Shown here piece after piece: positions 19,383-39,217 of a stretch of DNA of 39,217 nt. Both the position numbers and the translations under genes were made by a program. Origin of the DNA: a virus. The notes beneath the pieces are model-generated. The model saw nothing but the letters and a program-made list of their open reading frames with translations, did no database searches and was not told where the DNA came from. The stretch spans positions 1-39,217 of the IMG/VR virus record IMGVR_UViG_3300033182_001300; one strand, given 5' to 3'. Position 1 is the stretch's first letter, and each line of letters begins with the position of its first letter.

Positions 19383-19385
19383 ACA

Positions 19386-21002: not shown

Positions 21003-21671
21003 ATGAGAAATATTTGGTTTACTGGTGTACCGGGCAGTAGATGGAGTGGCGTGCACAGACTGCTAATAAATGCATGTGATGATATCGACAGAACAGACGA
21101 AACGCCTGACAGAAGATTTTATCACAAAAACGCAGATCCGCACAACCCAATGAATGGACACAGTGGCGCATATTGGGGGCCTGGCATGGGCTGCGGCGAA
21201 CACTGGCAAGAGCTTACCAAGTTGGGCAAAGAAAGAATTCAACTGGACATCGATAGCGTGTTTCACGGAGAAGGTAGACGTGTTATCAAAAATCATTATC
21301 TCAACAGACACTACAATTTGGACTACATTTGGGAAAACTTTCCAAGCGACGAATTGTTTTTGGTGTACAGAGAAAGTCAAAAAAGTTTTGCATGGTGGTG
21401 CGAAGTAATGGACTTCACAGAAGATCATTGGCCCGACTATAGACCCGGATACCGAAACTATGATTACATGCACAACTGCATTAGATATGAAAATGCATAC
21501 ATGCTGGACTTTGCAATGCGCAAAGGTTTGACATGGAGATGCGGAAACAGTATAAACGCATTCAAAGACTTCCCAGGATTTGATCCTGATAAGTACTATA
21601 GCAAAAACAGATGGGGAGACCTATATGTCGCTTACACAAGGATTCCAATATATGAACATAAACGTGACTGA
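21003..21671 (+). CDS. Sulfotransferase-like protein (P-loop type)
   Basis: A 222-residue protein opening MRNIWFTGVPGSRWSGVHRLL. The TGVPGSRWSG segment resembles the 5'-phosphosulfate-binding loop of PAPS-dependent sulfotransferases, and ELFLVYRESQKSFAWW near residue 118 resembles the second PAPS motif. Sulfotransferases move a sulfate from PAPS to a hydroxyl or amine. The rest is rich in Trp, Tyr, Asn and His and not family-typical, so the assignment is moderate. It is the first gene of the radical SAM cluster, 13 bases after the tctA terminator, with AGGAT before the ATG. A second sulfotransferase-like gene lies at 25.6 kb. Confidence 0.5.
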   Translation: MRNIWFTGVPGSRWSGVHRLLINACDDIDRTDETPDRRFYHKNADPHNPMNGHSGAYWGPGMGCGEHWQELTKLGKERIQLDIDSVFHGEGRRVIKNHYLNRHYNLDYIWENFPSDELFLVYRESQKSFAWWCEVMDFTEDHWPDYRPGYRNYDYMHNCIRYENAYMLDFAMRKGLTWRCGNSINAFKDFPGFDPDKYYSKNRWGDLYVAYTRIPIYEHKRD

Positions 21672-22389
21672 AGAAATGCGCCCATTCCCAGTGTGGCACT
21701 TTGACAAATGGCGCAGAGATGAATATGGCCAATACATGAAAACCGTAGGACGGTTTGTAGGTGATTGGAAGAAGGACATTGATGTTGCTAGAGGTATGGG
21801 AGTAGATCCTGCACCTTACAACAGACAAAATTACGGACATGCAGCAAACAAAGCCAGCACAGTAAACGGAGTGTATCACGCCGAAGAAGATGCACCCATG
21901 CTGGAGCAAGGCGGCGATCCAAGCATTCCTATGTTTCACAAAAGAAACTACAGCAAAGACGATAGAGACAGCTTACCAACATTTGTAAAAATGGCAGAAT
22001 ACTTTGGACTGGGCGACAAGCGTACATGGAAGTTTCATGATCAGCTGGTAAGTGATCAGTTGCCAAATCACATTGACAACTTGCCAGGCAATCCCAGTAA
22101 AGAACGTGTGGTAGACAATCCAGACTTCAAACACAACATTGGCAAAGCGAGATTTCTTGTTTTCCTAGAAGACTGGGAGCCAGGACAACTGTTCATGTTC
22201 GGCACCTACTATCATACACATTGGCGTGCTGGAGAAATTGTAACATGGGAATGGAGTACACTTCCGCATGCTACATGGAACGGCAGTTGGCGCAAACGTC
22301 CAGCACTGCAACTCACTGGAGATGTAACTGAGCAAACACTGAAAGTTATCAACACAGGACATGCAGACAGAGAAATCTACATCGATTGA
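21652..22389 (+). CDS. 2-oxoglutarate/Fe(II)-dependent oxygenase-like protein
   Basis: A 245-residue protein with the facial triad of the cupin-like Fe(II)/2OG oxygenases: His140 and Asp142 in LPNHIDNLPG, His206 in LPHATWNG, and an arginine (214 or 216) for 2-oxoglutarate before LQLTGD. GEIVTWEWSTLPHATWNG matches the usual GDxxxF...PHAxxN region. These enzymes hydroxylate or desaturate small molecules or peptides with O2. Starts at 21652 (AAGGA upstream, 20-base overlap) or 21625 are both possible; I prefer 21652. It is coupled to the sulfotransferase-like gene before it and to the double radical SAM gene after it. Confidence 0.75.
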   Translation: MNINVTEEMRPFPVWHFDKWRRDEYGQYMKTVGRFVGDWKKDIDVARGMGVDPAPYNRQNYGHAANKASTVNGVYHAEEDAPMLEQGGDPSIPMFHKRNYSKDDRDSLPTFVKMAEYFGLGDKRTWKFHDQLVSDQLPNHIDNLPGNPSKERVVDNPDFKHNIGKARFLVFLEDWEPGQLFMFGTYYHTHWRAGEIVTWEWSTLPHATWNGSWRKRPALQLTGDVTEQTLKVINTGHADREIYID

Positions 22390-23881
22390 CTGGAATCAAC
22401 AGATTCGCAAGTATGATTTGTACATCACAAATCAATGTCAAGCAGGTTGCCCAAGTTGCAGCAGATTTGTGCAAGACAACTTGGGCGAGTTTGTTTGCAA
22501 CAGCGGACAGCCATATGAATGGTTTGATCAAAAGGGCCTCTATGAGGTACACAAGCATCTCAGCATGGACCATGTGCCTTTTGAAAAACTAAAGCAATGG
22601 ATTGAAGACAACGTACCAAGTGGTACCAAGCACACTGTAAAACTATGCGGTGAATTTGGAGACCCTGCAATGCATCCACATTTGATGGAATTGGTACAGG
22701 TTATACAACGTAGAAGAAATTTTGTACAAATTGTTACAAACGGTGGACTTAGAAACAAACACTGGTGGCAGAAACTTGCAGAAACTATTCGACTGGGTAA
22801 AATCACATTCAGTATAGATGGTGCAACAGCAGAAACAAACCTCAAGTACAGAAAACGTGTAAACTTTGATCGTGCTATGGAAAACATGATTGCAGTTGCA
22901 CAGCTAGATGATAGAAAAGTAGAGTGGGATTATCTTATATTCAGCTGGAACTGGGAAGAATTACCACAAGCATTGCGCATTGCAGACAGGCACAGTATTC
23001 AATTGAATGCAAAATTTCAAAATAGAAAATACGGACAGCTTACAGATCAACAACACGATAAGGCCAAAGAAATAATACACAAACACAAAGACGGAATCAT
23101 CGAAGATATAAAGCCAGCAACACCAAAAGTAGACAATTTCAAATTGTTGACCAATCCAGCAGGACAACTCAGTTGGAGAGATCAACTAAAAGTAATAGAT
23201 ATCTATATTACAAATCAATGTCAAGCAGGTTGCCCAAGTTGCAGTAGATTTGACATGACCAATAGTTATTTGGATGCATGGTTAGAAGATCCAACCAAAC
23301 CTTACAAAGATTATCCATACAAAGTTTGGGAACCTTTGGGTATGGACCATGTATCATATGATACAATTCGCAAATGGTTGAGTACAAATATACCCAGAGG
23401 GTGGATGATGACTATAAAACTGTGCGGCGAATTTGGCGATCCAATGATGCATCCAAGAATCAAAGAAATTCTTACATTCATACAACAACGACAACAAAAT
23501 AAATTGTTATTGCACACCAACGGCGGATTGCGCAGTGCAGAGTGGTGGCGAGCTTTGCCCGAAGTATTGCAAAGAGCAGAAGTGGTATTCAGCATCGACG
23601 GTACCACCGAAGAAATAAACAGTCTGTATAGAAAACGTGTAAACTTTGATCGTGCTATGTCCAACATGATTGCATTTGCCGAAGCCATACGTGGAAGAGA
23701 AACCATTGGCTGCGGATGGGATTATTTGATATTTGATTGGAACTGGCATCAAATACCCGAAGCAGCACGGATTGCAAAAGAATACGATATTGAAATGGAT
23801 TTCAAATTTCAAAACAGAGAATACGGATTGATCTCAGAAGAGAACAGAAAAAATGCACAGGAGTTATTGAATGCACTGTAA
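22361..23881 (+). CDS. Tandem double-domain radical SAM protein
   Basis: A 506-residue protein made of two homologous radical SAM domains of about 245 residues each. Both carry CQAGCPSC (Cys26, 30, 33 and Cys287, 291, 294), the CxxxCxxC motif for the SAM-binding 4Fe-4S cluster. Both also have a KLCGEFGDP motif in the place of GGEP, a TNGGLR strand, FSIDG and YRKRVNFDRAM. The two halves share exact DNA stretches of 35 and 30 bases, so the duplication is recent or homogenised. Neither half has a SPASM tail; the next small gene looks like one. It should start 5'-deoxyadenosyl radical chemistry; substrate unknown. Confidence 0.85.
   Translation: MQTEKSTSIDWNQQIRKYDLYITNQCQAGCPSCSRFVQDNLGEFVCNSGQPYEWFDQKGLYEVHKHLSMDHVPFEKLKQWIEDNVPSGTKHTVKLCGEFGDPAMHPHLMELVQVIQRRRNFVQIVTNGGLRNKHWWQKLAETIRLGKITFSIDGATAETNLKYRKRVNFDRAMENMIAVAQLDDRKVEWDYLIFSWNWEELPQALRIADRHSIQLNAKFQNRKYGQLTDQQHDKAKEIIHKHKDGIIEDIKPATPKVDNFKLLTNPAGQLSWRDQLKVIDIYITNQCQAGCPSCSRFDMTNSYLDAWLEDPTKPYKDYPYKVWEPLGMDHVSYDTIRKWLSTNIPRGWMMTIKLCGEFGDPMMHPRIKEILTFIQQRQQNKLLLHTNGGLRSAEWWRALPEVLQRAEVVFSIDGTTEEINSLYRKRVNFDRAMSNMIAFAEAIRGRETIGCGWDYLIFDWNWHQIPEAARIAKEYDIEMDFKFQNREYGLISEENRKNAQELLNAL
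22427..22461 (+). repeat. Direct repeat, copy 1 (radical SAM motif, 35 bases)
   Basis: Identical over 35 bases to 23210-23244, starting ACAAATCAATGTCAAGCAGG. It encodes the CxxxCxxC region of the first domain; the two copies are 783 bases (261 codons) apart. Confidence 0.9.
23210..23244 (+). repeat. Direct repeat, copy 2 (radical SAM motif, 35 bases)
   Basis: Second copy of the 35-base repeat, in the second radical SAM domain. Just after it a single base differs (AGC versus AGT), then the match continues for a few bases. Confidence 0.9.
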
Positions 23882-24200
23882 AACCATACACTGTGTTTCA
23901 CTGGAGTCAAACGAAGTCAAGTGGGACGACCGTGGTAGAGTTTGGCCTTGTTGTTACTATGCAGCCAGGGTCGGACAGACTGGCAAGACCGGTGACGAAT
24001 ACATTGACAATTTGCCTGATGATTGGAACAGTCTAAATCATCATCCGCTGTTCAAAATACTACAGCACGATGCATTCAGCAAACATTGGCAGCCAGTAAA
24101 TTGGGACAGCGATGGTTGTCCTAAAATGTGCAAAGAAAACTGTACTGTGGGAAGCGACTTTGAAGTTGTAAAATACAATGTAGACGAGGAACAACAATGA
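23871..24200 (+). CDS. Stand-alone SPASM-like iron-sulfur protein
   Basis: A 109-residue protein with seven cysteines: 3, 8, 27, 28, 83, 87 and 91. The WPCC pair after a DDRGRVW turn and the terminal CPKMCKENC match the C-terminal SPASM domain that holds auxiliary 4Fe-4S clusters in peptide-modifying radical SAM enzymes. It overlaps the double radical SAM gene by 11 bases, as if the domain had been split off or is supplied in trans. A paralogue at 27.6 kb carries the same kind of domain fused to its C-terminus, with a CC pair and seven cysteines in that region. Binding to the double-domain protein is an inference. Confidence 0.7.
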   Translation: MHCKTIHCVSLESNEVKWDDRGRVWPCCYYAARVGQTGKTGDEYIDNLPDDWNSLNHHPLFKILQHDAFSKHWQPVNWDSDGCPKMCKENCTVGSDFEVVKYNVDEEQQ

Positions 24201-25621
24201 AAAAAGACTATGGCGGTAGATTTACGCCGCCCAGTGATACATTCTGTGTGCTGCCTTGGATACACTTGAGTACACGCCCAGACGGTGCTATGCGTGTTTG
24301 CTGTACTGCAAATGCCAGCAGTGTAGGAGCAACCAATGACAAACAACACGGAGGTAAAGTAGGCGAATTGCGCACAGAAGACGGCAAGCCTGCTAACCTA
24401 AACAACAGTGATTTGGAAAGCAGTTGGAACAACAGCTACATGCGTGGCACACGCCAAATGATGATGAAAGGCGAGCGTCCGCCTAGCTGTATCAAATGCT
24501 ACAAAGAAGAAGATGCAGGGCATGCAAGCAAACGACAATGGGAAACCAACTATTGGAGTAAACGCATGGACATTGATCAACTGTTGGCAGACACCGAAGA
24601 CGACGGCAGTATTCCTACAAAGATTCAGTATATTGATCTACGTATGGGAACAAAATGTCAATTGGCTTGTGTTATGTGTTCACCGCACGACAGCAGCGGC
24701 TGGGTCAAAGAATGGAAAGAAATGTATCCGCAGCTGAAAGATCCAGAACTCAAAGAAATTTGGCAATGGGAAAACAAAGGCAAAAACTACGGAGCAAGCT
24801 ACAACTGGCACAAAGACAATCCTGACTTTTGGGAACAGTTTTGGAAACAGATTCCCAATATGCTGCAACTGTATTTTGCTGGTGGCGAAAGCACAGTGAT
24901 TGATGAACACTATACTATTCTTGAAAAGATCATTGAACAAGGACATGCACCCAACATGGAACTGCGATACAACAGCAACGCAGTAGAATGGCGAGATGAT
25001 CTGTTTGAGCTGTGGAGTCATTTCAAGCTGGTGCGTTTTCATTACAGTTTAGACAGCATTGGTGCAATGAACGAATACATTCGTTACCCAAGTGATTGGA
25101 ATCATCAGGTAAGACAACTGTGGAAACTCAACAACGAAACCACAAACAATGTAGAAGTCACATTGGCTTGTGCAGTGAATGCATTGAACATACACTATCT
25201 ACCAGATTTCTTCAAATGGAAGTTGCAGCAAGGATTTGACAAAATCAACATGTGGCCATTCAGTGGCGGTGGTGTAAACACACACTTTGTGTATTGGCCT
25301 GCACCATTGAATGTGAAAGTGTTGCCTGAATGGTTCAAAGCAGAAACCGAAGCCAAGTACGAAGAATTTTACACTTGGTGGGAAGAAAATTGGGAACTGG
25401 GTATACCAAGTTGGTACAAGGGTAAGGTAAGCAAACAAGACTTTATGTCAGCAAGTCACGGCATTGATCGCATGAAAGGCATGATATCGTTTATGAAAAG
25501 CGAAGACTGGAGTAGACGCTTACCACAGTTTAGAGAATACATCAACACCATTGACCGTACACGTGGATTGGACTTTAGAAAAATATTCCCAGAAATGGCA
25601 CGTATACTGGACGAAGAATGA
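24197..25621 (+). CDS. Radical SAM protein with N-terminal twitch domain (1 of 6)
   Basis: A 474-residue protein. The N-terminal ~110 residues form a twitch-like iron-sulfur domain: FCVLPWIHL (Cys17), RVCC (Cys35, 36), CIKC (Cys98, 101), then HASKRQWE. The radical SAM motif is CQLACVMC (Cys154, 158, 161), followed by FAGGEST in place of GGEP and FHYSLDSIG. This order, auxiliary cluster first, is that of the N-twitch radical SAM family. It overlaps the SPASM-like gene by 4 bases (ATGA) and the next gene by 4. It is the longest of six such paralogues; an insertion after the radical SAM cysteines is rich in Trp and Lys. Confidence 0.85.
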   Translation: MKKDYGGRFTPPSDTFCVLPWIHLSTRPDGAMRVCCTANASSVGATNDKQHGGKVGELRTEDGKPANLNNSDLESSWNNSYMRGTRQMMMKGERPPSCIKCYKEEDAGHASKRQWETNYWSKRMDIDQLLADTEDDGSIPTKIQYIDLRMGTKCQLACVMCSPHDSSGWVKEWKEMYPQLKDPELKEIWQWENKGKNYGASYNWHKDNPDFWEQFWKQIPNMLQLYFAGGESTVIDEHYTILEKIIEQGHAPNMELRYNSNAVEWRDDLFELWSHFKLVRFHYSLDSIGAMNEYIRYPSDWNHQVRQLWKLNNETTNNVEVTLACAVNALNIHYLPDFFKWKLQQGFDKINMWPFSGGGVNTHFVYWPAPLNVKVLPEWFKAETEAKYEEFYTWWEENWELGIPSWYKGKVSKQDFMSASHGIDRMKGMISFMKSEDWSRRLPQFREYINTIDRTRGLDFRKIFPEMARILDEE

Positions 25622-26220
25622 AAACACTGGTGATAATGACAGGCCCACAAGGCGCAGGCAATCACTTGTTCAGCAAGGTATTGGCAGACAATCCTGCAAT
25701 TTGGGGTTGGAACATGCAGTCATTTTGGGAAGGACATCACCAAGAGCCATTCAGCGACTATTGGCAAGATCCAACACTGTTGAGTGAATTTGATTGGAGT
25801 CAATCAGATCATTATGTAACCAGTGTGAGTTGTCCATATTGGCGAGAAGGTCGATACCACATACCCGAGTATCAACATTTTGCCGAACAGGCCAGCCAAT
25901 ATGCAACTGTAAAAATAATACTGCTGGGCAGAGACCAAAACATACTACGCAGACAGCAACAACGGTTGCGTGGTAAACATACTACACCTGCACTGACCAA
26001 AGAATTGGATGTACTCAAGCAGTATCCAATGATTGTAGCAAGTCAAGAGTTGCTGCATCTTTATCAATTGCCTTATGTGAATTGGATAGAACAATGGATT
26101 GGTGTTGCACCAAGATCCAGTCTTGTGCTCACAGAAGATGCCAATGCCAAGTACATACATGATGCGCCCAGTGCAGTTGCCGAGCACGTGCAAGCAGCAA
26201 TAGAAGACAGCAATGAGTAA
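25618..26220 (+). CDS. Second sulfotransferase-like P-loop protein
   Basis: A 200-residue protein opening MKTLVIMTGPQGAGNHLFSKVLADNP, a P-loop-like start resembling the 5'-phosphosulfate loop (TGPQGAGNHLF). Near residue 100, VKIILLGRDQNILRRQQQRLRG resembles the second PAPS-binding region. It might transfer sulfate or bind a nucleotide; the family is not certain, since kinases share this fold. It sits between two twitch-type radical SAM genes with 4- and 8-base overlaps, so it is probably part of the same pathway. Confidence 0.5.
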   Translation: MKTLVIMTGPQGAGNHLFSKVLADNPAIWGWNMQSFWEGHHQEPFSDYWQDPTLLSEFDWSQSDHYVTSVSCPYWREGRYHIPEYQHFAEQASQYATVKIILLGRDQNILRRQQQRLRGKHTTPALTKELDVLKQYPMIVASQELLHLYQLPYVNWIEQWIGVAPRSSLVLTEDANAKYIHDAPSAVAEHVQAAIEDSNE

Positions 26221-27340
26221 ATGCCATATAATCAAAAACGGAATACACGTTGATGTACAGGGCAACATAGATTATTGCTGTGAAATGACTGTGGATGGTG
26301 TAGATAGGCCTAACTTTGCTGATTACGATTCATTCAAATCGCATGCTATGAAGGTGTACGAAAAAAGTAAAACTGCATGGCAACCAGGTTGCAGCGGCTG
26401 TCAATACAGAGAAGAAACAGACGGCGCATTCAGTTTGCGCAAAGAAGGCAACATAATAACCAAATACACCGACGAATCTGATACCAGTATTTGGCATGCT
26501 ATCATCAACACAGCCAATGTATGCAATTTAGCTTGTCGTATGTGTAGTCAAGGTCCAAGCTCAAGATTTGGACATTACGTAAAACATCATTCACCTGCTA
26601 TACTTGCAAAACAGTTTACAGGAAGCGGAGTCAGTGTACACATGCATGATGATCATACAACAGCGATTGTAAATGAACATGTGGTAAATCCAAATCTAAG
26701 AAAATTAGTACTCAGTGGCGGAGAGCCTACACAGAGCTATCGTGCAATGGATCTTGTGCAACAGTTGATGGATAAAGGATACAGTAAAAATGTCAAACTG
26801 CAAGTGATAACAAATGCCAGTATTCCTTGGAAAGACACATGGGCAGATGTGCTCAAATACTTTGGCAAAATCAACATCACTGTCAGTATGGATGGCACAC
26901 ATGATAATTACAATTACATAAGACATGAAGCAGATTTTGATACCACTGTGAGCATTGCTGAACACTTGAAAGATCGATGTTACGAGCACGGAGATGCAGA
27001 TTTTGGTATAGCATACTGTTGGCAAGCTGCAAATGCACACAAGTTTCTATATGACCAGCAATGGTTTGAAGATCGCTTTCCACGCTTTATGTATACCACA
27101 ATACATAGTCCAGATTATGTTACAGTGGATTGCATACCCACACCGCTTATGGAAAAATATGGTATTCGAGAGCTGTACGGCAAAGAATACAGACCAGAAG
27201 GTTTTAGAAAATTTATGGCTGCCATGCGATGGATGGATCGCATGTTTGACAAACTAGGCGAGTTGGAAAATCAGAACCCTGATTTGTTTGACTACTTGGA
27301 TGGAAGAGAAATATACTACGAAGGGAAATTATGGTTTTGA
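26213..27340 (+). CDS. Radical SAM protein with N-terminal twitch domain (2 of 6)
   Basis: A 375-residue protein. The twitch-like part has Cys4, the CC pair at 22-23 (DYCCEM) and CSGC at 60-63, then GAFSLRKEGN. The radical SAM motif is CNLACRMC (Cys104, 108, 111), followed by LVLSGGEPT with a full GGEP, ITNAS and ITVSMDG. It starts at 26213, overlapping the upstream gene by 8 bases (an ATG at 26221 is less likely), and overlaps the small membrane protein gene by 10. The shorter twitch part (first cysteine at residue 4) distinguishes it from its neighbours. Confidence 0.85.
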   Translation: MSKCHIIKNGIHVDVQGNIDYCCEMTVDGVDRPNFADYDSFKSHAMKVYEKSKTAWQPGCSGCQYREETDGAFSLRKEGNIITKYTDESDTSIWHAIINTANVCNLACRMCSQGPSSRFGHYVKHHSPAILAKQFTGSGVSVHMHDDHTTAIVNEHVVNPNLRKLVLSGGEPTQSYRAMDLVQQLMDKGYSKNVKLQVITNASIPWKDTWADVLKYFGKINITVSMDGTHDNYNYIRHEADFDTTVSIAEHLKDRCYEHGDADFGIAYCWQAANAHKFLYDQQWFEDRFPRFMYTTIHSPDYVTVDCIPTPLMEKYGIRELYGKEYRPEGFRKFMAAMRWMDRMFDKLGELENQNPDLFDYLDGREIYYEGKLWF

Positions 27341-27564
27341 AAAGAGATCACGTTTGGTATGTAAAGTATGCCAGTGCAATAACAATATTGATTGCAATGG
27401 TGTTGCACGTACAGGGTATTACACCTTGGAACAGTTTAGCACAACTGTTGGGAGCCAGCGGTTGGGTTTATGTAGGGTATCGTTGGAATGAAAAAGCAAT
27501 AATGTTGAACTTTTTACCACAGTTTTTTATTATTATACCCATACTGTTTTGGATGTATGTGTAG
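27331..27564 (+). CDS. Small membrane protein (possibly DUF6552-like)
   Basis: A 77-residue protein with two hydrophobic segments, about residues 13-27 (YASAITILIAMVLHV) and 59-75 (FLPQFFIIIPILF), and a conserved-looking middle (LLGASGWVYVGYRWNEKAIM). From memory, small phage membrane proteins of this layout (DUF6552) begin with a Trp-Tyr-rich N-terminus, as here (HVWYVKYAS). It overlaps the upstream radical SAM gene by 10 bases and may anchor a complex to the membrane. Function unknown. Confidence 0.6.
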   Translation: MVLKRDHVWYVKYASAITILIAMVLHVQGITPWNSLAQLLGASGWVYVGYRWNEKAIMLNFLPQFFIIIPILFWMYV

Positions 27565-27593
27565 TTGACAACACAGTGTAAATCAAGTATAGT
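27565..27593 (+). promoter_or_regulatory. Sigma70-like promoter P6, predicted leaderless
   Basis: TTGACA (27565-27570), 17-base spacer and TATAGT (27588-27593), six bases before the ATG at 27600. The geometry is identical to P2 and again no Shine-Dalgarno sequence precedes the ATG. Confidence 0.7.
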
Positions 27594-27599
27594 ATAACA

Positions 27600-28685
27600 A
27601 TGTATAATTTACCAGATATCAAAATGGTGCACTTGGAAGTGACACAACGCTGTCAAGCAGCATGTCCCATGTGCGACCGCAACGAAAACGGCGGACGTGA
27701 CAATGTGCACATGACCAATGCAGAACTCTCACTGGAAGACTGCAAGCAGATTTTTTCACCTGAATTTATTGCACAACTGGACAGCATGTACATGTGTGGT
27801 AACTTGGGCGATCCTATTGTTGCACGTGATACATTGGAAATATTCCGTTACTTTAGACAACACAATCCTAAGATGTGGCTCAGCATGAACACAAACGCCG
27901 GAGCCAAAGAACCAGAATGGTGGGCAGAACTGGCAGGTGTGTTTGGTCGTATGGGTGCAGTTATTTTCAGTTTAGACGGACTTGAAGATACAAATCATTT
28001 GTATAGACAAAACGTACGATGGGATATTGTAGAACGCAGTTTCACAGCATTTATTGCTGCTGGTGGTAGAGCAAGATGGGACTACATCATATTTGATTAC
28101 AACGAACATCAAGTTGAAGATGCAGAAGCATTGGCCAGTGTGTGGGGATTTGAAAAGTTTCGTGCAAAGAAAACAGGACGATTTTTTAGCAGTGCAAAAA
28201 ACAAAGGCAAAGAACAACACCAAGCAGTAAACCGCAAAGGCGAAACCACAACAAATCTAGCCAAGCCTAAACGAGCTGAATATCAAAACACTGCACTGCT
28301 CAAAGAAAAAGAAATTGAAAAGACATACGGCAGCATGATGGAATACTACAACAAGTGTGACATTCGCTGCAAAGCCATTGACAAAAGCGAAATATACATC
28401 ACAGCAGAAGGCCTGTTGTTGCCCTGTTGTTGGACTGCTGGACGCATGTACAAATGGTGGCACAAGGATCCCAAGGTAGAACAAATCTGGGATCATATCG
28501 ACAGCGTAGGCGGCAAAGATGCAATTGATTGTCGCAATGGCGGAGTTGAAGCTATTTTTTACAGCGGCATACTGGAAAGCATTGAGCAAAGCTGGAAACT
28601 AGAGAGTATCAAAGAAGGCAAGCTGGGTGTTTGTGCACAAAAATGTGGTACGGAGTTTGATGCGTTTGGAGCCCAATTTACTTGA
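27600..28685 (+). CDS. Radical SAM protein with C-terminal SPASM domain
   Basis: A 361-residue protein. The radical SAM motif is CQAACPMC (Cys18, 22, 25), with MCGNLGDP in the GGEP place, MNTNAG and FSLDGLED. The ~110 C-terminal residues hold seven cysteines (253, 257, 276, 277, 311, 345, 349), including LPCC and CAQKC, the SPASM layout for two auxiliary clusters. Such enzymes often modify peptides. It is the closest relative of the double-domain protein by motif (CQAxCPxC, GxxGDP), with the tail fused, not separate. It has its own promoter, P6, and appears leaderless, so it may be made independently of the upstream genes. Confidence 0.87.
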   Translation: MYNLPDIKMVHLEVTQRCQAACPMCDRNENGGRDNVHMTNAELSLEDCKQIFSPEFIAQLDSMYMCGNLGDPIVARDTLEIFRYFRQHNPKMWLSMNTNAGAKEPEWWAELAGVFGRMGAVIFSLDGLEDTNHLYRQNVRWDIVERSFTAFIAAGGRARWDYIIFDYNEHQVEDAEALASVWGFEKFRAKKTGRFFSSAKNKGKEQHQAVNRKGETTTNLAKPKRAEYQNTALLKEKEIEKTYGSMMEYYNKCDIRCKAIDKSEIYITAEGLLLPCCWTAGRMYKWWHKDPKVEQIWDHIDSVGGKDAIDCRNGGVEAIFYSGILESIEQSWKLESIKEGKLGVCAQKCGTEFDAFGAQFT

Positions 28686-31693: not shown

Positions 31694-32748
31694 TCAATGC
31701 ATGGACAGAGTTTCAACCTCTTAAAAAAGTAATCTTAGGCAGAGCATTTCCGCCTGAGACATTTGACTGGCACGGCAATCGTGAACAGCGTGAAGTAATG
31801 CGTCAAATCTTTGAAGAAACAGAAGAAGATCTACAAGAGCTTGTAAAAATCTTCAAAGACGCTGGAGTAAAAGTTGCTCGTCCCAAGAACATTTTTACAA
31901 TCAATGGCGAGGAGCAGGTCAAGTTGCCTTGGATGCAGTGCGGATATCCTAATCATCCGCTGATGCCCAGAGACACACTGTTTCCATATGGCAACACCAT
32001 GTTTGAAATGTTTACAGGATCAGACAATCGCTATTTTGAAAACATGGCCTATCATCACATCAACTTTCATCATTGGATGACTGGACAAGAATGGATCAGC
32101 ATGCCAGGTGTACAAGTAAACACTGGTCAAGGATACGACAAATTTGAAACACAAGAAAAACTAATCTATCATGCGGCTAATATGATCAAGCTAGGTGACA
32201 CAGTATTGTGTAGTCAACCATGGGCAGGAGATCAAAAACGTGGCAAAGGCACAACCTACGGCAGAGAATGGATTGCACGTATAGTGAATAGACTGTATCC
32301 CAACACACGTTTTATTGACATACCTGTTGGTGGACACATTGATGGTAAAATTGCACTGCTCAAGCCAGGTGTGCTCATGACATGGAACCGTGATTGGGTG
32401 CCAGATGAACTAAAAAGCTGGGACATCATTGAAGTAGATGACACACATGACATGCCTGAAGAATTTTTGCAGACACGCAAACGCAGATTCCACAGAGAAT
32501 ATGTGAGCAAGTGGCTTTCACACTGGATTGGCTATGCAGACGAATCAGTGTTTGATGTAAACGTGTTCAGTATTGATGAAGAAACAGTTATTGTAACTGG
32601 CGACGATAAAAAAGTACGCACGGATATTGAAAAGCGTGGCATCAATACAGTTTACTGGAAATGGCGGCATCAATATTTTTGGGACGGCGGCATTCACTGC
32701 CTTACAAGTGACATAGTACGAGAAGGTAATCGTGAGTCTTATCTATAA
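31690..32748 (+). CDS. Amidinotransferase (glycine amidinotransferase-like)
   Basis: A 352-residue protein of the amidinotransferase/arginine deiminase-like fold, near the length of the domain in glycine amidinotransferase. Likely catalytic residues are Cys337 (GGIHCLTSDIVRE), His216 (VGGHIDGK) and an Arg-Asp pair at 94-95 (MPRDTLFPYGN), with SVFDVNVFSID also typical. Such enzymes transfer an amidino group from arginine to an amine, making guanidino compounds, or hydrolyse guanidino groups. Transfer is more likely given the AGAT-type DVN and HC motifs. It is coupled to an oxygenase-like gene upstream and a radical SAM gene downstream, so a guanidine-containing product is possible. Confidence 0.82.
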   Translation: MINAWTEFQPLKKVILGRAFPPETFDWHGNREQREVMRQIFEETEEDLQELVKIFKDAGVKVARPKNIFTINGEEQVKLPWMQCGYPNHPLMPRDTLFPYGNTMFEMFTGSDNRYFENMAYHHINFHHWMTGQEWISMPGVQVNTGQGYDKFETQEKLIYHAANMIKLGDTVLCSQPWAGDQKRGKGTTYGREWIARIVNRLYPNTRFIDIPVGGHIDGKIALLKPGVLMTWNRDWVPDELKSWDIIEVDDTHDMPEEFLQTRKRRFHREYVSKWLSHWIGYADESVFDVNVFSIDEETVIVTGDDKKVRTDIEKRGINTVYWKWRHQYFWDGGIHCLTSDIVREGNRESYL

Positions 32749-33979
32749 CAACTTTTATGATGCGCCTAATCCGCTGTGTCTTGCTCCGTGGAATTGTATC
32801 ACAGTGCATCCAGATGGACGTATAAGTCCAGACATGCACTACAAGGGTGAATACGGCAGCTTGTATGAAAACACACTGGGCGAACTTTGGCACAGTGAAG
32901 CAGCACATCAACTGCGTAAAGACATGCAAGCACGGCAATACAATCCTGCATGTGAAACTTGTCAGAAAAAAGACAAACTGGTTGGCAAAAGCAGACGACA
33001 TTACTTTTGGGATATATTTCCACATGATCTAAAAAGCAGACCAGTTGCGGCAGATGCAGACCCGGACATCATTTACTTGGATTTTACCACCAGCAATGTG
33101 TGCAACTTGAAATGTGTACACTGTTCAGGAGAAGTCAGCACAGCATGGATCAAAGATGAAAAACGATTACAACACAGAGACTGGCGTAGCAAAACAGCAC
33201 CATGGGGTAGGCTCGATCTTGGCTGTATTGACAACCTGTTTGCTGATATGCATCACTTCCGCAATCTACGTTTTGTCGCCTTGCGTGGGGGCGAACCATT
33301 ATACGAAAAACACAACCTGCATCTACTACGAAAGTTTGTGGACAATGGAACTTCCAAAAATATCACACTAGATATCAGCACAAATGCCACAGTGCTTGAC
33401 CCAGAGTTTTTAGAACTGTTTCCGCATTTTGAAGAAGTACAACTGTACATCAGCATTGAAGGTGCAGCGGAAATGTACAGTTTGCTACGTGGAGGCAACT
33501 ATACAGCTGAAGATTTAGAAACAAACATACAACAATTTTTGGATATTCCAAATCTTCGTATCTGCTTTGCGATAACTACTATGAGTGCCAATGTTATGCA
33601 TTTACTTGATGTATGGCGTTGGCTGAAACCATATTTGGATTATGGTGTTGAGTTTTCGTTTAGCAACACTGTTGTTAGTCCACGCTATTTGGACATTGAT
33701 GTATTGCCCGAGGATATCAAACGAGCAGCACTTGCTAAAGTGCAACTGATACCGCAGACACTGGAATACAGAGCAGGGGGTGAATACAACACCGGCATAC
33801 ACAATGTGATAAAAAGCCTAACAACACCAAAATTCACCGAAGAAGAACGCATGAAGCGTTTCAAACATTTTTTGAAATACATGGGAGACTTGGATCGTAT
33901 ACGTGATACACGTTACTTTGAGTTGACTCCCCAATTGAAATACTGGCACGAAAAATATTATGACAACCCCGAACTTTGA
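32732..33979 (+). CDS. Radical SAM protein with degenerate N-terminal twitch domain (4 of 6)
   Basis: A 415-residue protein. The radical SAM motif is CNLKCVHC (124, 128, 131), with LRGGEPL as GGEP and ISIEGAAEMY. The twitch-like start keeps Cys16 (LCLAPWNC) and CETC (74/77), but where its paralogues have a CC pair it reads RISPDMHY. The auxiliary cluster may therefore differ or be absent. The start is GTG at 32732, with AAGG upstream and a 17-base overlap with the amidinotransferase gene. It ends with a 20-base overlap with the aminotransferase-like gene. Confidence 0.83.
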   Translation: MSLIYNNFYDAPNPLCLAPWNCITVHPDGRISPDMHYKGEYGSLYENTLGELWHSEAAHQLRKDMQARQYNPACETCQKKDKLVGKSRRHYFWDIFPHDLKSRPVAADADPDIIYLDFTTSNVCNLKCVHCSGEVSTAWIKDEKRLQHRDWRSKTAPWGRLDLGCIDNLFADMHHFRNLRFVALRGGEPLYEKHNLHLLRKFVDNGTSKNITLDISTNATVLDPEFLELFPHFEEVQLYISIEGAAEMYSLLRGGNYTAEDLETNIQQFLDIPNLRICFAITTMSANVMHLLDVWRWLKPYLDYGVEFSFSNTVVSPRYLDIDVLPEDIKRAALAKVQLIPQTLEYRAGGEYNTGIHNVIKSLTTPKFTEEERMKRFKHFLKYMGDLDRIRDTRYFELTPQLKYWHEKYYDNPEL

Positions 33980-34859
33980 AAAATCTGCCAACAGTATCTG
34001 GCACAATCCATACTTTGATTACCTAAAAGACAGTGGCTTTTGGAATCGCATTGACGCTTCTGATCTGCCACAAGCACAGGACAGTTTCTTGATTGAATAC
34101 CCAGAATGGATTGCCAGCAGTAAACTGAACAGTTTCCGTGGACTGGACTTGGATCATTTTCCACACAGAGTAATCAGCTTGGGTACTACACAAGCATTTG
34201 ACTGGTGGCACTTTATGATTGCAAGCCGCGGACAACGACTGCGTGTGTTCAAAGGAGAATATCCTTATCACAGAGACGTTGCATACAACTGGTCGCACAC
34301 ACAATATATTGAGAACGCACCGCTGGAACCGGGTGATGCTGTCATTATCAGCATACCTTTCAGTGGTACAGGAGACAAGCCCGCACAGTGGAAATGGCTG
34401 TTGAAGGAATGCGAGGACAAGGACATACCAATATATGTTGATTGTGCTTGGTTTGGTTGTTGCGAAGATTTGGAAGCAAAGCTAGCACACCAGCCTATTC
34501 AAGCAGTTGCGTTCAGCACTACAAAAGGATTGAGTTCGGGTAATTGGCGAGCTGGAATGGTGTTTACCAGAGAAGACTATTCCAGCTTGCATCTACAAAC
34601 TGAATGGCATCATGGCATTCACCTAAACACACGTATTGGATTAGAACTGATACGTAATTTTGGTCCAGACACTATACCAGAAACCTACAGTAAATGGGCC
34701 ACACGAGTCTGCGAACACTATGGATTAGAACGCAGCAAAACAGTTCACATTGCCAAAGGCGGCGAGGACTGGAACGAGTACAATAGAGATGGAACCTACA
34801 ACCGCATCAACATTAGAAAACATATCAAGCACGTCAAGAAGCATAAAACATTTGACTAA
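33960..34859 (+). CDS. PLP-dependent aminotransferase-like protein (fold type I, compact)
   Basis: A 299-residue protein with fold type I PLP enzyme features. These are GTTQAF at about 75-80 in the phosphate-loop place, IYVDCAWFG with Asp161 (the residue that pairs with the pyridine nitrogen), and AFSTTKGLSSGNWRAG with Lys189 as the likely Schiff-base lysine. Aminotransferases of this class move amino groups, usually in 350-450 residues; here the C-terminal domain is short. It would suit making or modifying an amino acid or amine precursor. It overlaps the previous gene by 20 bases and the next by 8. Confidence 0.75.
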   Translation: MTTPNFEKSANSIWHNPYFDYLKDSGFWNRIDASDLPQAQDSFLIEYPEWIASSKLNSFRGLDLDHFPHRVISLGTTQAFDWWHFMIASRGQRLRVFKGEYPYHRDVAYNWSHTQYIENAPLEPGDAVIISIPFSGTGDKPAQWKWLLKECEDKDIPIYVDCAWFGCCEDLEAKLAHQPIQAVAFSTTKGLSSGNWRAGMVFTREDYSSLHLQTEWHHGIHLNTRIGLELIRNFGPDTIPETYSKWATRVCEHYGLERSKTVHIAKGGEDWNEYNRDGTYNRINIRKHIKHVKKHKTFD

Positions 34860-35985
34860 AGGTAAGTTTCATTGCAGATACCCATTCAAGCATGCACAGG
34901 TCACGCCCAACGATCCTGCGATGCCCTGTTGCCGTTTCAATCACAACTTTTTAGACGAACGTGACAAAGGTGATATCACCGACTTTGACAATCTATTCAC
35001 AGACATACGTGAAAAAATGTTGAACAACGAGTATGTACCTGGTTGCTGGAAGTGCTACGAAGATGAAAAGAACGGCAACAAAAGCATGCGAGAAGAAAGT
35101 TTTGAGCTGTGGGACAACGAAGATGTAAAATTCGCAGGCATGGAAATTGTTGTAGGCAGGCTGTGCAATCTACGCTGTGTTACTTGTGATAGTGATTGGA
35201 GCAACAAGTGGGACGATGACAGTCGTGCAATGGGCATGACAGTGCGTGACAACTATGTAAACGAATACGACTTAGACAACATCGACATTGGTATTTTCAA
35301 AAACATACAGTTTATCAAAGTAACCGGCGGAGAACCATTCCTGCACAGACAGTTTTTGAATTTGATCAAGCGTCTTGCACTCAGCGGCGATGCAGGTCAC
35401 ATAGATATTGAAATATTCACCAACTGTACTTTTTATCCTGCTAAACTGGACGAACAGAGCTTGTTGAAATTCAGACGTGTTGATATTTCATTGAGCATTG
35501 ATGCATTGGATGATCAATTCGAATACCTACGCAAAAATGCAGACTGGATACGCAGTGAACAGATATTTGCACAATGGCTTGAACAGCACACGGCTGCAAA
35601 CTCGCCAGTAACGCTGCAAGTTGCTGCCACAGTTGGTATCTTAAACATTCTTTACATATACGACCTAGTGCACTATTTTAGAGGCCGGCACGGCATCAAT
35701 GTAATGTTGCAAACTGTGTTTGAACCCAGACACTTGGGTATCGCTACATGGCCAGACTGGGTAAAAGATAGACTATCATATCTATTGGAAATACAATTCA
35801 GTCAGTATCATCCCAAAGTAGACAAATTTATCAAGTATCATAAAAAATTACAAAAGATGCTAAAACGCACTGGATCAAATGATGATCCACAAACACTGCG
35901 CAAAGAAATAGATCGTCTAGCAAAACTGCGCGGCGACGATCTTGACAATACATTTGATAGACTGTGGCGGTTATTAGAACTATGA
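34852..35985 (+). CDS. Radical SAM protein with N-terminal twitch domain (5 of 6)
   Basis: A 377-residue protein. The start is taken as TTG at 34852 (TTGACTAA overlap with the previous gene), since the translation MTKGKFHCRYPFKH then begins as its paralogues do. Twitch cysteines are at 8, 26-27 (MPCC) and 65/68 (CWKC), then NKSMREES. The radical SAM motif is CNLRCVTC (105, 109, 112), with VTGGEPF and DISLSIDALDD. An ATG at 34789 would give 21 more residues. It overlaps the next gene by 4 bases. Substrate unknown. Confidence 0.83.
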   Translation: MTKGKFHCRYPFKHAQVTPNDPAMPCCRFNHNFLDERDKGDITDFDNLFTDIREKMLNNEYVPGCWKCYEDEKNGNKSMREESFELWDNEDVKFAGMEIVVGRLCNLRCVTCDSDWSNKWDDDSRAMGMTVRDNYVNEYDLDNIDIGIFKNIQFIKVTGGEPFLHRQFLNLIKRLALSGDAGHIDIEIFTNCTFYPAKLDEQSLLKFRRVDISLSIDALDDQFEYLRKNADWIRSEQIFAQWLEQHTAANSPVTLQVAATVGILNILYIYDLVHYFRGRHGINVMLQTVFEPRHLGIATWPDWVKDRLSYLLEIQFSQYHPKVDKFIKYHKKLQKMLKRTGSNDDPQTLRKEIDRLAKLRGDDLDNTFDRLWRLLEL

Positions 35986-37154
35986 TTGAAAAAGGACCTA
36001 CCATGTGTATCCTGCCTTGGATGCACATTTACACCAGTGCCGGTGGCGATGTTGTTCCTTGTTGCGAAGCACAAGAAGCATACATGAACAAACCAGGCGA
36101 AAGTTTGCGTGACACCTGGAATGGTGAACGCTACAGAGAACTACGTCGAGCATTGATGGCAGGTGAACAACACCCTGCTTGTCATGTGTGCTGGCACAAC
36201 GAAGCCAATGGCATAGACAGCAATAGACAAATCAACGAACAAGACTTTTGGGATGATTATGCAGACAAGATTGTAGCATTTGAAGATGGTACTGTAGAAA
36301 CTGCACCTATGTGGATTGAAAGCAAGGTAAGCAACTTCTGCAACTTGAAGTGCAAAATGTGCAGCACAGAAAGCAGCTACAAGCGTACACATGATTTGGA
36401 TATCATACGCAAGTATTCACCAGAAGATGCAGAATTTCAACACGAAACAAGACTGCTACGTCCATTGGAACTGTATGAATATTTACAGAACGATCCGGAT
36501 CTTTGGGAAGATGTTGACAGGCTACAGTTCTCAGGAGGTGAGCCTATTATCAATCAGGAACACTATGACCTGTTGAACAGTATTCCTAAACATAGACGTC
36601 ACCGTATACAACTACGCTATGCCAGCAACCTAACACATCTAAAGTTTAAGGACAACGACTTGATTGACCTTTGGAGTCAATTTAGACATGTGCAAGTAAA
36701 GATCAGTGTAGACGGAGTTGGTGACGTCTATGACTATATTCGCACAGGAGCCCAGTTTGATGATGTGATAAGTAACATTAGAACACTGTATGCATCGCCA
36801 GTAAATGTCAGCTTGGGACTTGGATTTACTGTGCAAGCATTCAACTGTTTTCAGCTTCCAGAGTTTTATGATTATTTTGAAAGCATGGGAATTGATTGGT
36901 TTCACATTGGTGCATACATGTTACAAACCCCAAAGTATCTAAACATCAGTGTTTATCCAGAACCAATACGCAACGCTGTGATTGAGAAATTACAAGCAGA
37001 TGGTAGATTTGAACACATTGTAAAGTACTTGCAATCAAATGATCGCAGTAAACTTTGGGAAAAGAAAACAGTGCCATATGCACGTGCACTGGAAAACCGC
37101 TACAACGACACAGACACACTGGAAGGTCTGTTGAAAAAATATTTGGATATCTAA
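35982..37154 (+). CDS. Radical SAM protein with N-terminal twitch domain (6 of 6)
   Basis: A 390-residue protein starting at 35982 (ATGA overlap). Twitch cysteines are at 9 (MCILPWMHI), 27-28 (VPCC) and 67/70 (CHVC), then DSNRQINEQDF. The radical SAM motif is CNLKCKMC (120, 124, 127), followed by FSGGEPI, YASN and VKISVDGVGDVYDYIR. With the 24.2-kb and 29.6-kb proteins it shares a fully conserved CxLPxxxxxT...CC start and the Gly-rich phrase before the radical SAM motif, so these three are the most typical members. It ends with a TAATG junction to the next gene. Confidence 0.85.
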   Translation: MIEKGPTMCILPWMHIYTSAGGDVVPCCEAQEAYMNKPGESLRDTWNGERYRELRRALMAGEQHPACHVCWHNEANGIDSNRQINEQDFWDDYADKIVAFEDGTVETAPMWIESKVSNFCNLKCKMCSTESSYKRTHDLDIIRKYSPEDAEFQHETRLLRPLELYEYLQNDPDLWEDVDRLQFSGGEPIINQEHYDLLNSIPKHRRHRIQLRYASNLTHLKFKDNDLIDLWSQFRHVQVKISVDGVGDVYDYIRTGAQFDDVISNIRTLYASPVNVSLGLGFTVQAFNCFQLPEFYDYFESMGIDWFHIGAYMLQTPKYLNISVYPEPIRNAVIEKLQADGRFEHIVKYLQSNDRSKLWEKKTVPYARALENRYNDTDTLEGLLKKYLDI

Positions 37155-38680
37155 TGCTAACCAACCAAACTTACATTTACTACAACAGAGACAGTGCTTG
37201 GCCAATTGTAAACGTGTTTATACGTGACAGCAGACTCACTGCAAAATGGCCTACACTGAAAACCAAACTGAATCAGATTCAAATGATTGAAGCGCAAAAT
37301 AGCCTGCGTGGAGATTTTGTCGAACTGAATGTTTCACATGATCGTTATTGGATGAAACACATGTATGACATTGGAAAACGTTATGCAGTTGTTTGGTACG
37401 ACGGTTGCTGGCCTACAGAAGAAACATGGAACATGGAGTTGCTCAAGACCATTGACGAATGGAACAAAGGGGAAGAAGATTGGGCTGTTGCAGGACACAT
37501 TTTATTGGACAGAAAGTACAACAGCAAAGATGACAGAAGAGCAGAAGTTACCAGCTGGCGCAGCGATGTAAAGCAGTATGATTATCCACATTGGCATCAT
37601 CAGTGTTTGATATTGAACTTGCAAGCATGGAGTGAAATTGGTTGGCCTGATTTGGATCAAGGCTGGAGTGCAAATGCATGTGCCAATTACGAACCCAGCA
37701 AAGAACACATACATGACAACTATACTCCTACCTATGTCGACGGACTACCAGGATTTATACCAGAAAATCAAGTGGAGTTTGTGGATGAGCCAGGCAATGT
37801 GTTGATTGTACGTGCACTGAACAACAGATATCGTGTGTGGAATTTGCCAGATAATCTACGCTGCAACAAGGTAAGTGTGTATCCGGAAGAAGGCAGTGAA
37901 TATCTACAGGACTTGCTCAGTGGTGCAAAAACTTGGAATCAAGTAAAGGACTATGTAGACGAAGATGCTATTTGGTTGCAAAACTATGTGTTCCAAAGTG
38001 CAGAAAACTTTATCTATTTGATCAACACAGAAGTTACCAATGACAACTGGTACACAGCAATGGACAAAAACAATCTAATGCAATTCAACAACTATGTTGG
38101 TGTTGCAGCTGGATGGAAACTGTTGCATCACATGTATCATCACGGCTGGGAGCCAGGTACAAAAGTGGTATGGTACGACATCAGCAAAGCCGCAGTTGAA
38201 CTAAAACAATACTTGGTTGAAAATTGGAATGGGCACAACTATGAACGTGTTGCACTGGACTGGTGTGAAAAGAACGGCTACAATTCACACAACGGTCATC
38301 AAATTCCAGAGCGCATGAATTTGCTGTACGACATCTGCGGAGGGTACGACAACTGGATTGAATTTTGGCAACGCATCACTGCAGAGTGTGAATTTGAATT
38401 TGTACACTTGGACATGGTGTATGATATTGATAAAATATTAGAGTATGTGCCCAAGGACAAGACAACACTGTTTTACAGCAGTAATTTGTACAGCTACTTG
38501 CCCAACATCATACGTTGTGGTATACATTTGGAAAAAAGTTTTGTAGATTTGATTGTAGGATTGCGTGAAGCAAACCCCAATAACTTTTTTGAAGGCACTG
38601 ATGTAAACGACAATCAATTGTTTCAACGTGTTACAGCAGTAGACAGTGCACGAGTAAATATATCAGCAACAGAAGATTAG
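37154..38680 (+). CDS. Large hypothetical protein with Rossmann-like C-terminal part
   Basis: A 508-residue protein starting at 37154 (TAATG). I do not recognise a family. Around residues 60-165 is a region with YAVVWYDGCWPTEETW and AVAGHILLDRK, then a histidine-rich HWHHQCLILNL, faintly like a glycosyltransferase donor domain. Around 315-355, VGVAAGWKLLHHMYHHGWEPGTKVVWYDISKA looks like the glycine-rich loop and acidic second strand of a class I methyltransferase. Trp, Asn and Tyr are abundant. It follows the last radical SAM gene directly and precedes another oxygenase, so it probably belongs to the cluster. Confidence 0.55.
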   Translation: MLTNQTYIYYNRDSAWPIVNVFIRDSRLTAKWPTLKTKLNQIQMIEAQNSLRGDFVELNVSHDRYWMKHMYDIGKRYAVVWYDGCWPTEETWNMELLKTIDEWNKGEEDWAVAGHILLDRKYNSKDDRRAEVTSWRSDVKQYDYPHWHHQCLILNLQAWSEIGWPDLDQGWSANACANYEPSKEHIHDNYTPTYVDGLPGFIPENQVEFVDEPGNVLIVRALNNRYRVWNLPDNLRCNKVSVYPEEGSEYLQDLLSGAKTWNQVKDYVDEDAIWLQNYVFQSAENFIYLINTEVTNDNWYTAMDKNNLMQFNNYVGVAAGWKLLHHMYHHGWEPGTKVVWYDISKAAVELKQYLVENWNGHNYERVALDWCEKNGYNSHNGHQIPERMNLLYDICGGYDNWIEFWQRITAECEFEFVHLDMVYDIDKILEYVPKDKTTLFYSSNLYSYLPNIIRCGIHLEKSFVDLIVGLREANPNNFFEGTDVNDNQLFQRVTAVDSARVNISATED

Positions 38681-38689
38681 GAGAACAAC

Positions 38690-39217
38690 ATGTGGTTAGA
38701 CGGATATGAAGTACCTCAAAAATTGCAAGCAACAGATGCAGTAAGAAAATTTTATGCAGAACACGAACACAAAAACAAAGAACATCACTTTGATCCGTTG
38801 CTGGTGAAAGATCCAGAAGACAATGACATGATGTTGGATCACAGTACCAATCCATGGCTTCGTGTAGATGGTATTGAAATGGATCACGAAGGTATACTAG
38901 CAGAAGCCATGCATCTGTTGGACACAGCATGTTTTACATATCACAGACCAGAAAGTGCAGGCTGGATGAGCTTGTGTATTCACGGCATCAGCAGTGTGCA
39001 TACCAACTGTGCAGATGATTATGGATTGCCCGACGATTTTGAAGAAACAGATTCACACTGGACTGACATTGCACGTTTTTGTCCTAAAACTGTGGACTTT
39101 ATGGAAAACCATTTGCGCTACGAAGATTATACACGTGTGCGATTTATGGTACTGTTGCCTGGCGGTTATATTGCACCACACAGCGACAAAGACAGTCAAG
39201 GATTTGGTGCTACTAAC
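38690..39217 (+). CDS. Aspartyl/asparaginyl beta-hydroxylase-like 2OG/Fe(II) oxygenase (3' truncated by window)
   Basis: The frame starts at ATG 38690, with AGGAG 6 bases upstream, and runs off the window after 176 residues. VRFMVLLPGGYIAPHSDKDSQG, with His164 and Asp166, matches the first half of the metal triad in aspartyl/asparaginyl beta-hydroxylase-like proteins. The second histidine and the arginine for 2-oxoglutarate must lie beyond the end. Such enzymes add a hydroxyl to an amino acid side chain or free amino acid. It is the third oxygenase-like gene of the cluster and shows that the cluster continues past the window. Confidence 0.75.
   Translation, partial: MWLDGYEVPQKLQATDAVRKFYAEHEHKNKEHHFDPLLVKDPEDNDMMLDHSTNPWLRVDGIEMDHEGILAEAMHLLDTACFTYHRPESAGWMSLCIHGISSVHTNCADDYGLPDDFEETDSHWTDIARFCPKTVDFMENHLRYEDYTRVRFMVLLPGGYIAPHSDKDSQGFGATN

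Follow-up and report, generated by a model that had tools for sequence, protein, structure and literature searches.

The IMG/VR viral record IMGVR_UViG_3300033182_001300, analysed here over its whole length of 39,217 bases (the window, whose right end is the end of the contig), carries between positions 21003 and 39217 an island of 19 genes, all on the plus strand and mostly overlapping in the list of open reading frames, which encode among them nine radical S-adenosylmethionine (rSAM) proteins with ten rSAM domains. The best explanation is that large T4-like marine phages have a conserved biosynthetic island, of which this is one copy. Judged from its sequence, the island very probably constitutes a working multi-step pathway, whose product is, with a probability of roughly 0.5, a heavily tailored, guanidinylated sugar or glycan. 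Genes are named below by their start positions (Table 1).

The island genes are intact and under purifying selection. Compared with contig G001 (IMGVR_UViG_3300017913_001966), whose shared island proteins are 89-100% identical, each gene compared has a ratio of nonsynonymous to synonymous substitution rates (dN/dS) between 0.009 and 0.16, at unsaturated dS values of 0.10-0.28. Every island frame is open, and from 24197 to 38680 the genes form a string in which neighbours overlap or are closely spaced; overlap had been noted for nearly all of the cluster in a preliminary description made from the letters of the window. The cluster also runs past the window, as suspected there: G001 extends about 8 kb beyond the window end, and in this stretch has genes for a DoxX membrane protein and an SDR-like protein as well as four more rSAM frames, of which one is cut.

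Gene order is kept as well. In the amidinotransferase-bearing contigs with a long enough flank, several of which are near-duplicates, so that not all are independent, the series 24197-29631-30878-31690-32732-33960-34750-35964-37055-38690 recurs to the limit of the flank, 30878 usually being in reversed orientation; three contigs (L168, L170, L175) show the 30878-31690 pair only. Identity to the island proteins is 63-87% for most of them in G002 and G003, and 27-69% in G011 and G013; sister contigs carry a T4-like DNA polymerase and clamp loader. These genes might have been scattered, unlinked, or broken in related phages; there they are linked, ordered, and intact, which together with the dN/dS values supports the original suggestion of a phage-borne biosynthetic or modifying pathway. 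Chance or artefact is ruled out by the open frames, the gene order, and dN/dS. The syntenic block of G003, at about 33.8-60 kb, includes asparagine-synthase-like genes and an ATP-type phosphoenolpyruvate carboxykinase (50206-51405, L041:12206-13405; PF01293, E 5e-91), which lies inside the rSAM island there and is not in the window copy; an acyl-lipid desaturase-like protein, identified by reading, adjoins the island at 61097-61858.

All nine rSAM proteins match the superfamily by profile and contain the CxxxCxxC motif, which occurs twice in 22361-23881; the halves of this protein are 45% identical and represent an internal duplication, so that the earlier count of ten rSAM domains in nine proteins was exact. 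In the protein scan, most of the nine lie above the cut-off of PF04055, with 24197 and 27600 slightly below it. The NCBIfam model NF033640 (N-terminal twitch rSAM), with a curated cut-off of 170 bits, is passed by five (24197, 29631, 32732, 34750, and 35964, at 230-417 bits) and narrowly missed by 26213 (155 bits), the remaining three also scoring below 170; 29631 has no meaningful homology match in the PDB. The paralogues within the island are mutually about 20-31% identical, against 36-87% for their orthologues in other phages, which suggests distinct and old steps for the individual enzymes; each paralogue seems to keep a step of its own. Recent tandem duplication of one rSAM gene is ruled out by this low identity, the exception being the internal duplication in 22361. 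Gene 23871, whose stand-alone SPASM-like domain was already singled out in the preliminary description, has no Pfam match, but in several lineages it repeatedly accompanies short rSAM genes of the 22361 type.

Relatives of the most conserved of these enzymes, 24197, are common in marine virus data: its profile, applied to 600 pattern matches in IMG/VR, finds them at no fewer than 591 viral places among the matches listed. In the best 80 viral loci of these at least 591 relatives, three or more rSAM genes are present in 79 and an orthologue of 27600 in 68, and the 48 loci of at least 18 kb have a median of nine rSAM genes (range 3-13). In keeping with active chemistry, CxxxCxxC is found in 690 of the 694 rSAM-like proteins longer than 280 residues across the neighbourhoods. 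Before the rSAM genes stands a recurrent block of a DxD-bearing sugar-transferase-like family (c1), a methyltransferase-like family (c0), both identified from motifs only, and a conserved family of about 75 residues (c2). Downstream of the core the content varies, with a carbamoyltransferase, a nitroreductase, an AMP-binding enzyme, or an SDR-like protein; the rSAM set differs strongly among phages of the wider family, and the amidinotransferase is present in a minority only of 24197-family loci. Unannotated contigs of Marine virus AG-345-D19, from one sorted marine cell (L067, L068), contain a carbamoyltransferase, an rSAM-like frame, and two frames resembling amidinotransferases; the host of this virus was not found in the literature, and the cell it came from could show which host this phage group infects.

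The core is not confined to viruses. The core rSAM enzyme 24197 is found in 33 of 141 genomes of one Bdellovibrionales order, 14 of these being near-orthologues, and the bacterial core consists of orthologues of 24197 and 27600 with c1 and c0. In genome G098 the contig that bears it is 936 kb long and has about a dozen rSAM genes, an SDR, and an aminotransferase homologue; the genes adjoining this copy read like those for MurA and seryl-tRNA synthetase, and it is thus chromosomal. A family-2 glycosyltransferase occurs within about 10 kb of the core rSAM gene in seven of ten genomes, against 0.09 expected per locus (binomial 3e-6, an approximate value, as glycosyltransferases tend to cluster, one genome is counted via a second copy, and the expectation is the genome-wide density). 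Locus L071 has an epimerase, a full asparagine synthase, and an OafA-type acyltransferase near the core. The cluster G019:C47:44045-75416 (L177, L178), with a B12-rSAM protein, aconitase/HMGL/PrpD-type genes, a carbamoyltransferase, and homologues of 37055 and 38690, is itself a bacterial biosynthetic cluster not previously described. The Bdellovibrionales clusters differ from the island in their tailoring genes, and no amidinotransferase homologue occurs in the stretches read.

For the partner enzyme 31690, the proposal of an amidinotransferase was confirmed by profile matches to HsvA (1e-31, residues 2-352), StrB1 (1e-22), SxtG, and AGAT. In its family alignment (A1), H216, D218, and H336-C337 are invariant and the motifs GGHIDGK and GGIHCLTSD conserved; full-length homology and the catalytic His and Cys, which it shares along with the fold family with HsvA, the inosamine-phosphate amidinotransferase StrB1, and AGAT, place it in the class of arginine amidinotransferases. 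No close cellular homologue emerged when 84,980 genomes of bacteria and archaea were scanned by pattern. Homologues adjoin KdsA/KdsB and glycosyltransferases in cyanophage S-SCSM2R, and the one in Campylobacter phage CP220 adjoins nucleotide-sugar transferase-type genes.

Several of the remaining partners are assigned from residue patterns or predicted folds, and 37055, 33960, 30878, 21580, 38690, and 21003 have no meaningful homology match in the PDB. For three genes the label 2-oxoglutarate (2OG)/Fe(II) oxygenase-like had been proposed; 38690 belongs to PF05118 (E 2.7e-14 in the full-length G001 copy), while 21580, without a Pfam match, and 30878 have the label from invariant H-x-D...H residues only. 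The pyridoxal-phosphate (PLP) aminotransferase-like protein 33960 retains this description on the strength of an invariant Lys/Asp pattern, but has no Pfam match either; homologues are present in the phage and the Bdellovibrionales clusters. The 541-residue protein 37055, also without a Pfam match, gave an AlphaFold model from 29 sequences with a mean predicted local distance difference test score (pLDDT) of 83, whose best Foldseek matches are glycosyltransferases for the first half and NNMT/INMT-type methyltransferases for the second (probability 0.9-1.0, best E 5e-4); the fold match is weak, yet the same as in an earlier, poor model from five sequences (pLDDT 57).

Between the peptide, the virion or envelope glycan, and the small molecule offered at the outset as possible products, the evidence favours a sugar or glycan and disfavours a classical ribosomally synthesised and post-translationally modified peptide (RiPP). 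The chances that the scaffold is a sugar or glycan stand about even, given the glycosyltransferase-like fold of 37055, the glycosyltransferases beside the bacterial core rSAM gene, the sugar-related genes beside amidinotransferase homologues in S-SCSM2R and CP220, and the sugar-nucleotide genes lying 14-21 kb upstream in the window (a glycosyltransferase, a nucleotide-sugar epimerase, and a UDP-sugar dehydrogenase). The enzymes would act in series during infection on a sugar or sugar-linked building block: 33960 would add an amine, onto which 31690 would move the amidino group of arginine to yield a guanidine; the rSAM enzymes and oxygenases would rearrange, oxidise, or epimerise unreactive C-H positions; and 37055 would transfer or methylate the sugar. 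In the least secure step of this scheme, the product would be displayed on the infected cell or the virion as a glycan or glycoconjugate, where it might, for example, block superinfection or hide a receptor.

This chemistry has upkeep costs, as rSAM enzymes require SAM, iron-sulfur (Fe-S) clusters, and electrons, and yield 5'-deoxyadenosine. Sister phages encode a SAM synthetase, as does the window (MetK). Of 107 loci, 27 have an MTA/SAH nucleosidase (PF01048) within the cluster, and so do G011 and G013. Near the cluster in G024 are 7Fe-type ferredoxin, FeS_assembly_P, NifU-like, A-type carrier, and FTR1 proteins, and all of this set except FeS_assembly_P has homologues in G011 and G013; G022 has Nfu and FeS_assembly_P, plus a flavin reductase inside the cluster. 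These genes would serve the island. In G024, the A-type Fe-S carrier, NifU-like, FTR1-like iron permease, ferredoxin, and FeS_assembly_P genes form one run (34574-37873, L185).

Several observations weigh against a guanidinylated sugar or glycan made by this route. Pfam finds no flippase, polymerase, or lipid-carrier transferase in 21003-39217. The likeness of 37055 to glycosyltransferases is weak (E 5e-4, low TM-score), and profile comparison gives it no significant relation to c1 or c0; c1 itself, the frequent sugar-transferase-like family, has no Pfam or PDB match. Two proteins, 21003 and 25618, had been described as sulfotransferase-like, an identity that Pfam confirms for neither and PDB profiles do not confirm for 21003. 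The full support kit belongs to the sister contigs, the window itself showing MetK only, and the aconitase-, HMGL-, and PrpD-type genes and the carbamoyltransferase of G019:C47 also fit a small molecule or an unusual acid.

The alternative that survives best, though we regard it as unlikely, is a diffusible guanidine-bearing small molecule, made by a phage-borne natural-product cluster and acting on competitors, grazers, or the host. The nearest relatives of 31690 (HsvA, StrB1, and SxtG) all belong to natural-product pathways, the tailoring enzymes of related clusters include a carbamoyltransferase, an AMP-binding enzyme, and a nitroreductase, and the aconitase/HMGL/PrpD-type genes of the Bdellovibrionales cluster point the same way; against this, no polyketide synthase or nonribosomal peptide synthetase that would build a scaffold was found, and glycosyltransferases recur both near the bacterial core and in phages with related amidinotransferases. 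Modification of a peptide or protein, by RiPP-like maturation or by decoration of a virion or host protein, is less probable still: twitch/SPASM rSAM enzymes do often act on peptides, and the PF05118 family includes Asp/Asn hydroxylases, but Pfam scans of the island show no PqqD-like recognition domain, peptidase, or export gene, and the only recurrent small neighbour, c2 (about 75 residues, 48 loci), is conserved over nearly its full length, unlike a precursor with a variable core. This family is not seen in the window. No frame of 60 or more residues in the island is a candidate for a RiPP precursor whose leader is conserved and whose core varies.

Hypermodification of phage DNA bases has a very small probability. 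A GTP cyclohydrolase-like and a QueE-like gene, the usual sign of 7-deazaguanine DNA modification, are recognised by reading upstream of the island, and phages do glycosylate DNA; the same core with many paralogues, however, stands on Bdellovibrionales chromosomes, and the number of enzymes is far above that of any DNA-modification route known to us. An equally slim chance attaches to a loosely assembled set of auxiliary genes that boost host metabolism but lead to no shared product, as proposed for the module of phages CP220/CPt10 (Timms et al., 2010; PMC2853527) and in keeping with the strong variation of the rSAM set across the wider phage family, since the order of at least ten genes is fixed across divergent phages, paralogue identity is low, and genes for cofactors and by-products are present.

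Phages with many rSAM genes are already known. The Campylobacter phages CP220/CPt10 have 11-12, including a five-gene module with a glycine amidinotransferase (PMC2853527), and a T4-like Tara genome, TARA_ERS488813_N000010, is given 12, along with an Fe-S A-type carrier and paaD (Nishimura et al., 2017; PMC5332604), so that the remark in the preliminary description that phages carry single rSAM genes is not supported. Like the Campylobacter module, the island belongs to a T4-like phage and joins an amidinotransferase gene to several adjacent rSAM genes; the likeness extends to the exchangeable nature of the module and the adjoining sugar-transferase-type genes. The Campylobacter run differs in having half as many rSAM genes, which reach at most 31 bits with NF033640, an amidinotransferase of 24% identity, and no annotated oxygenases or aminotransferase; matches between island and module are weak (20-26%) and the gene order is different. 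The Tara genome resembles the island, by description only, in its many rSAM genes and Fe-S carriers in one T4-like marine genome; the passages of that paper concerned with it provide counts of Fe-S genes rather than gene order, an amidinotransferase, or a pathway. In pelagimyophages, rSAM cassettes vary between otherwise similar marine myophages, within a hypervariable cluster linked by the authors to host recognition, and few rSAM genes are mentioned (PMC7029224); in the cultured pelagiphage Mosig, the best match covers half of one protein at 27%. The sequenced Vibrio phages K566/K567 (about 255 kb) share a run of twitch rSAM genes, with five NF033640 matches in K566 at E 1e-39 or better, but at about 21-25% identity and with no homologue of the 31690 amidinotransferase found. 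The window has no DNA-level match to GenBank phages.

In the open-access papers searched, which miss most subscription journals and preprints, no description was found of the island with its fixed gene order, of the core, or of the relatives in bacteria; within that literature the conserved island, these relatives, and the support kit appear to be undescribed. The usual picture is of a virus with one or two borrowed metabolic genes, but in this case an entire multi-step pathway of radical chemistry appears to be carried together with its upkeep. Tentatively, and with somewhat less confidence than for the product of the window copy, the multi-rSAM islands may form an unrecognised class, shared by large marine phages and predatory Bdellovibrionales, whose common core is a pair of rSAM enzymes with one partner resembling a sugar transferase and another resembling a methyltransferase, and which makes a new chemical type of guanidinylated, C-H-tailored glycan; the phages would run it with SAM, Fe-S, and 5'-deoxyadenosine housekeeping of their own. 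The island enzymes offer a large reservoir of unexplored rSAM reactions; the presence of the core in predatory bacteria offers a cellular system for finding the product, and isolated relatives (Vibrio phages K566/K567 and Campylobacter phage CP220) make the question testable.

Table 1. Genes of the island and the metK gene upstream of it.
Product	Position	Strand	Observations
MetK, S-adenosylmethionine synthetase, probable SAM supply	8138..9232	+	outside island; PF02773/PF02772/PF00438, E 1e-57 to 1e-31
P-loop-like protein, first conserved island gene	21003..21671	+	cluster head also in G003 (70%), G011/G013 (50-53%)
2OG/Fe(II) oxygenase-like protein	21580..22389	+	invariant HxD...H in alignment A5; dN/dS 0.095
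rSAM protein, two tandem rSAM domains	22361..23881	+	PF04055 1.6e-17 in two stretches; two CQAGCPSC motifs
small Cys-rich SPASM-like protein	23871..24200	+	adjoins 22361 homologues in G003, G007, G008, G011, G013, G017
rSAM protein, N-terminal twitch, most conserved core enzyme	24197..25621	+	NF033640 417 bits; dN/dS 0.009
P-loop-like protein, sulfotransferase-like by reading only	25618..26220	+	G013 homologue 43%
rSAM protein	26213..27340	+	PF04055 1.4e-11; NF033640 155 bits
small membrane protein DUF6552	27331..27564	+	PF20189 6.6e-11
rSAM protein, second core enzyme	27600..28685	+	PF04055 3.4e-6; orthologues in viral loci and Bdellovibrionales chromosomes
rSAM protein	28627..29634	+	PF04055 7.7e-10
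rSAM/twitch protein	29631..30878	+	NF033640 310 bits
oxygenase-like protein	30878..31693	+	invariant HxD...H in alignment A4; opposite strand in most relatives (~20 loci)
HsvA/StrB1/AGAT-type amidinotransferase	31690..32748	+	profile matches; catalytic His and Cys conserved
rSAM/SPASM-twitch protein	32732..33979	+	PF04055 7.5e-12, PF13186 4e-9; NF033640 251 bits
PLP aminotransferase-like protein	33960..34859	+	invariant STTK (K189) and D161 in alignment A3
rSAM/twitch protein	34750..35985	+	NF033640 230 bits
rSAM/SPASM-twitch protein	35964..37154	+	NF033640 312 bits
two-domain protein: N-terminal GT-A glycosyltransferase-like, C-terminal Rossmann methyltransferase-like	37055..38680	+	AlphaFold and Foldseek
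aspartyl/asparaginyl beta-hydroxylase, truncated by contig end	38690..39217	+	PF05118 2.8e-4 here

The 39,217 bases contain no tRNAs or RNA families. Just before the island, at 18282-20954, two genes read as the binding protein and the TctA-type membrane subunit of a tripartite tricarboxylate transporter; the first, 18282, has no Pfam match at E 0.05 and none in GenBank phages, and both have homologues in other viral contigs (TctA 87% in G007). A pentapeptide-repeat-like protein, recognised by reading at 4354-5370, matches several PHROGs of unknown function. The GTP cyclohydrolase-like and QueE-like genes, likewise identified by reading only, lie at 2138-2824 and 6822-7715, the latter being about 75% conserved in sister phages.

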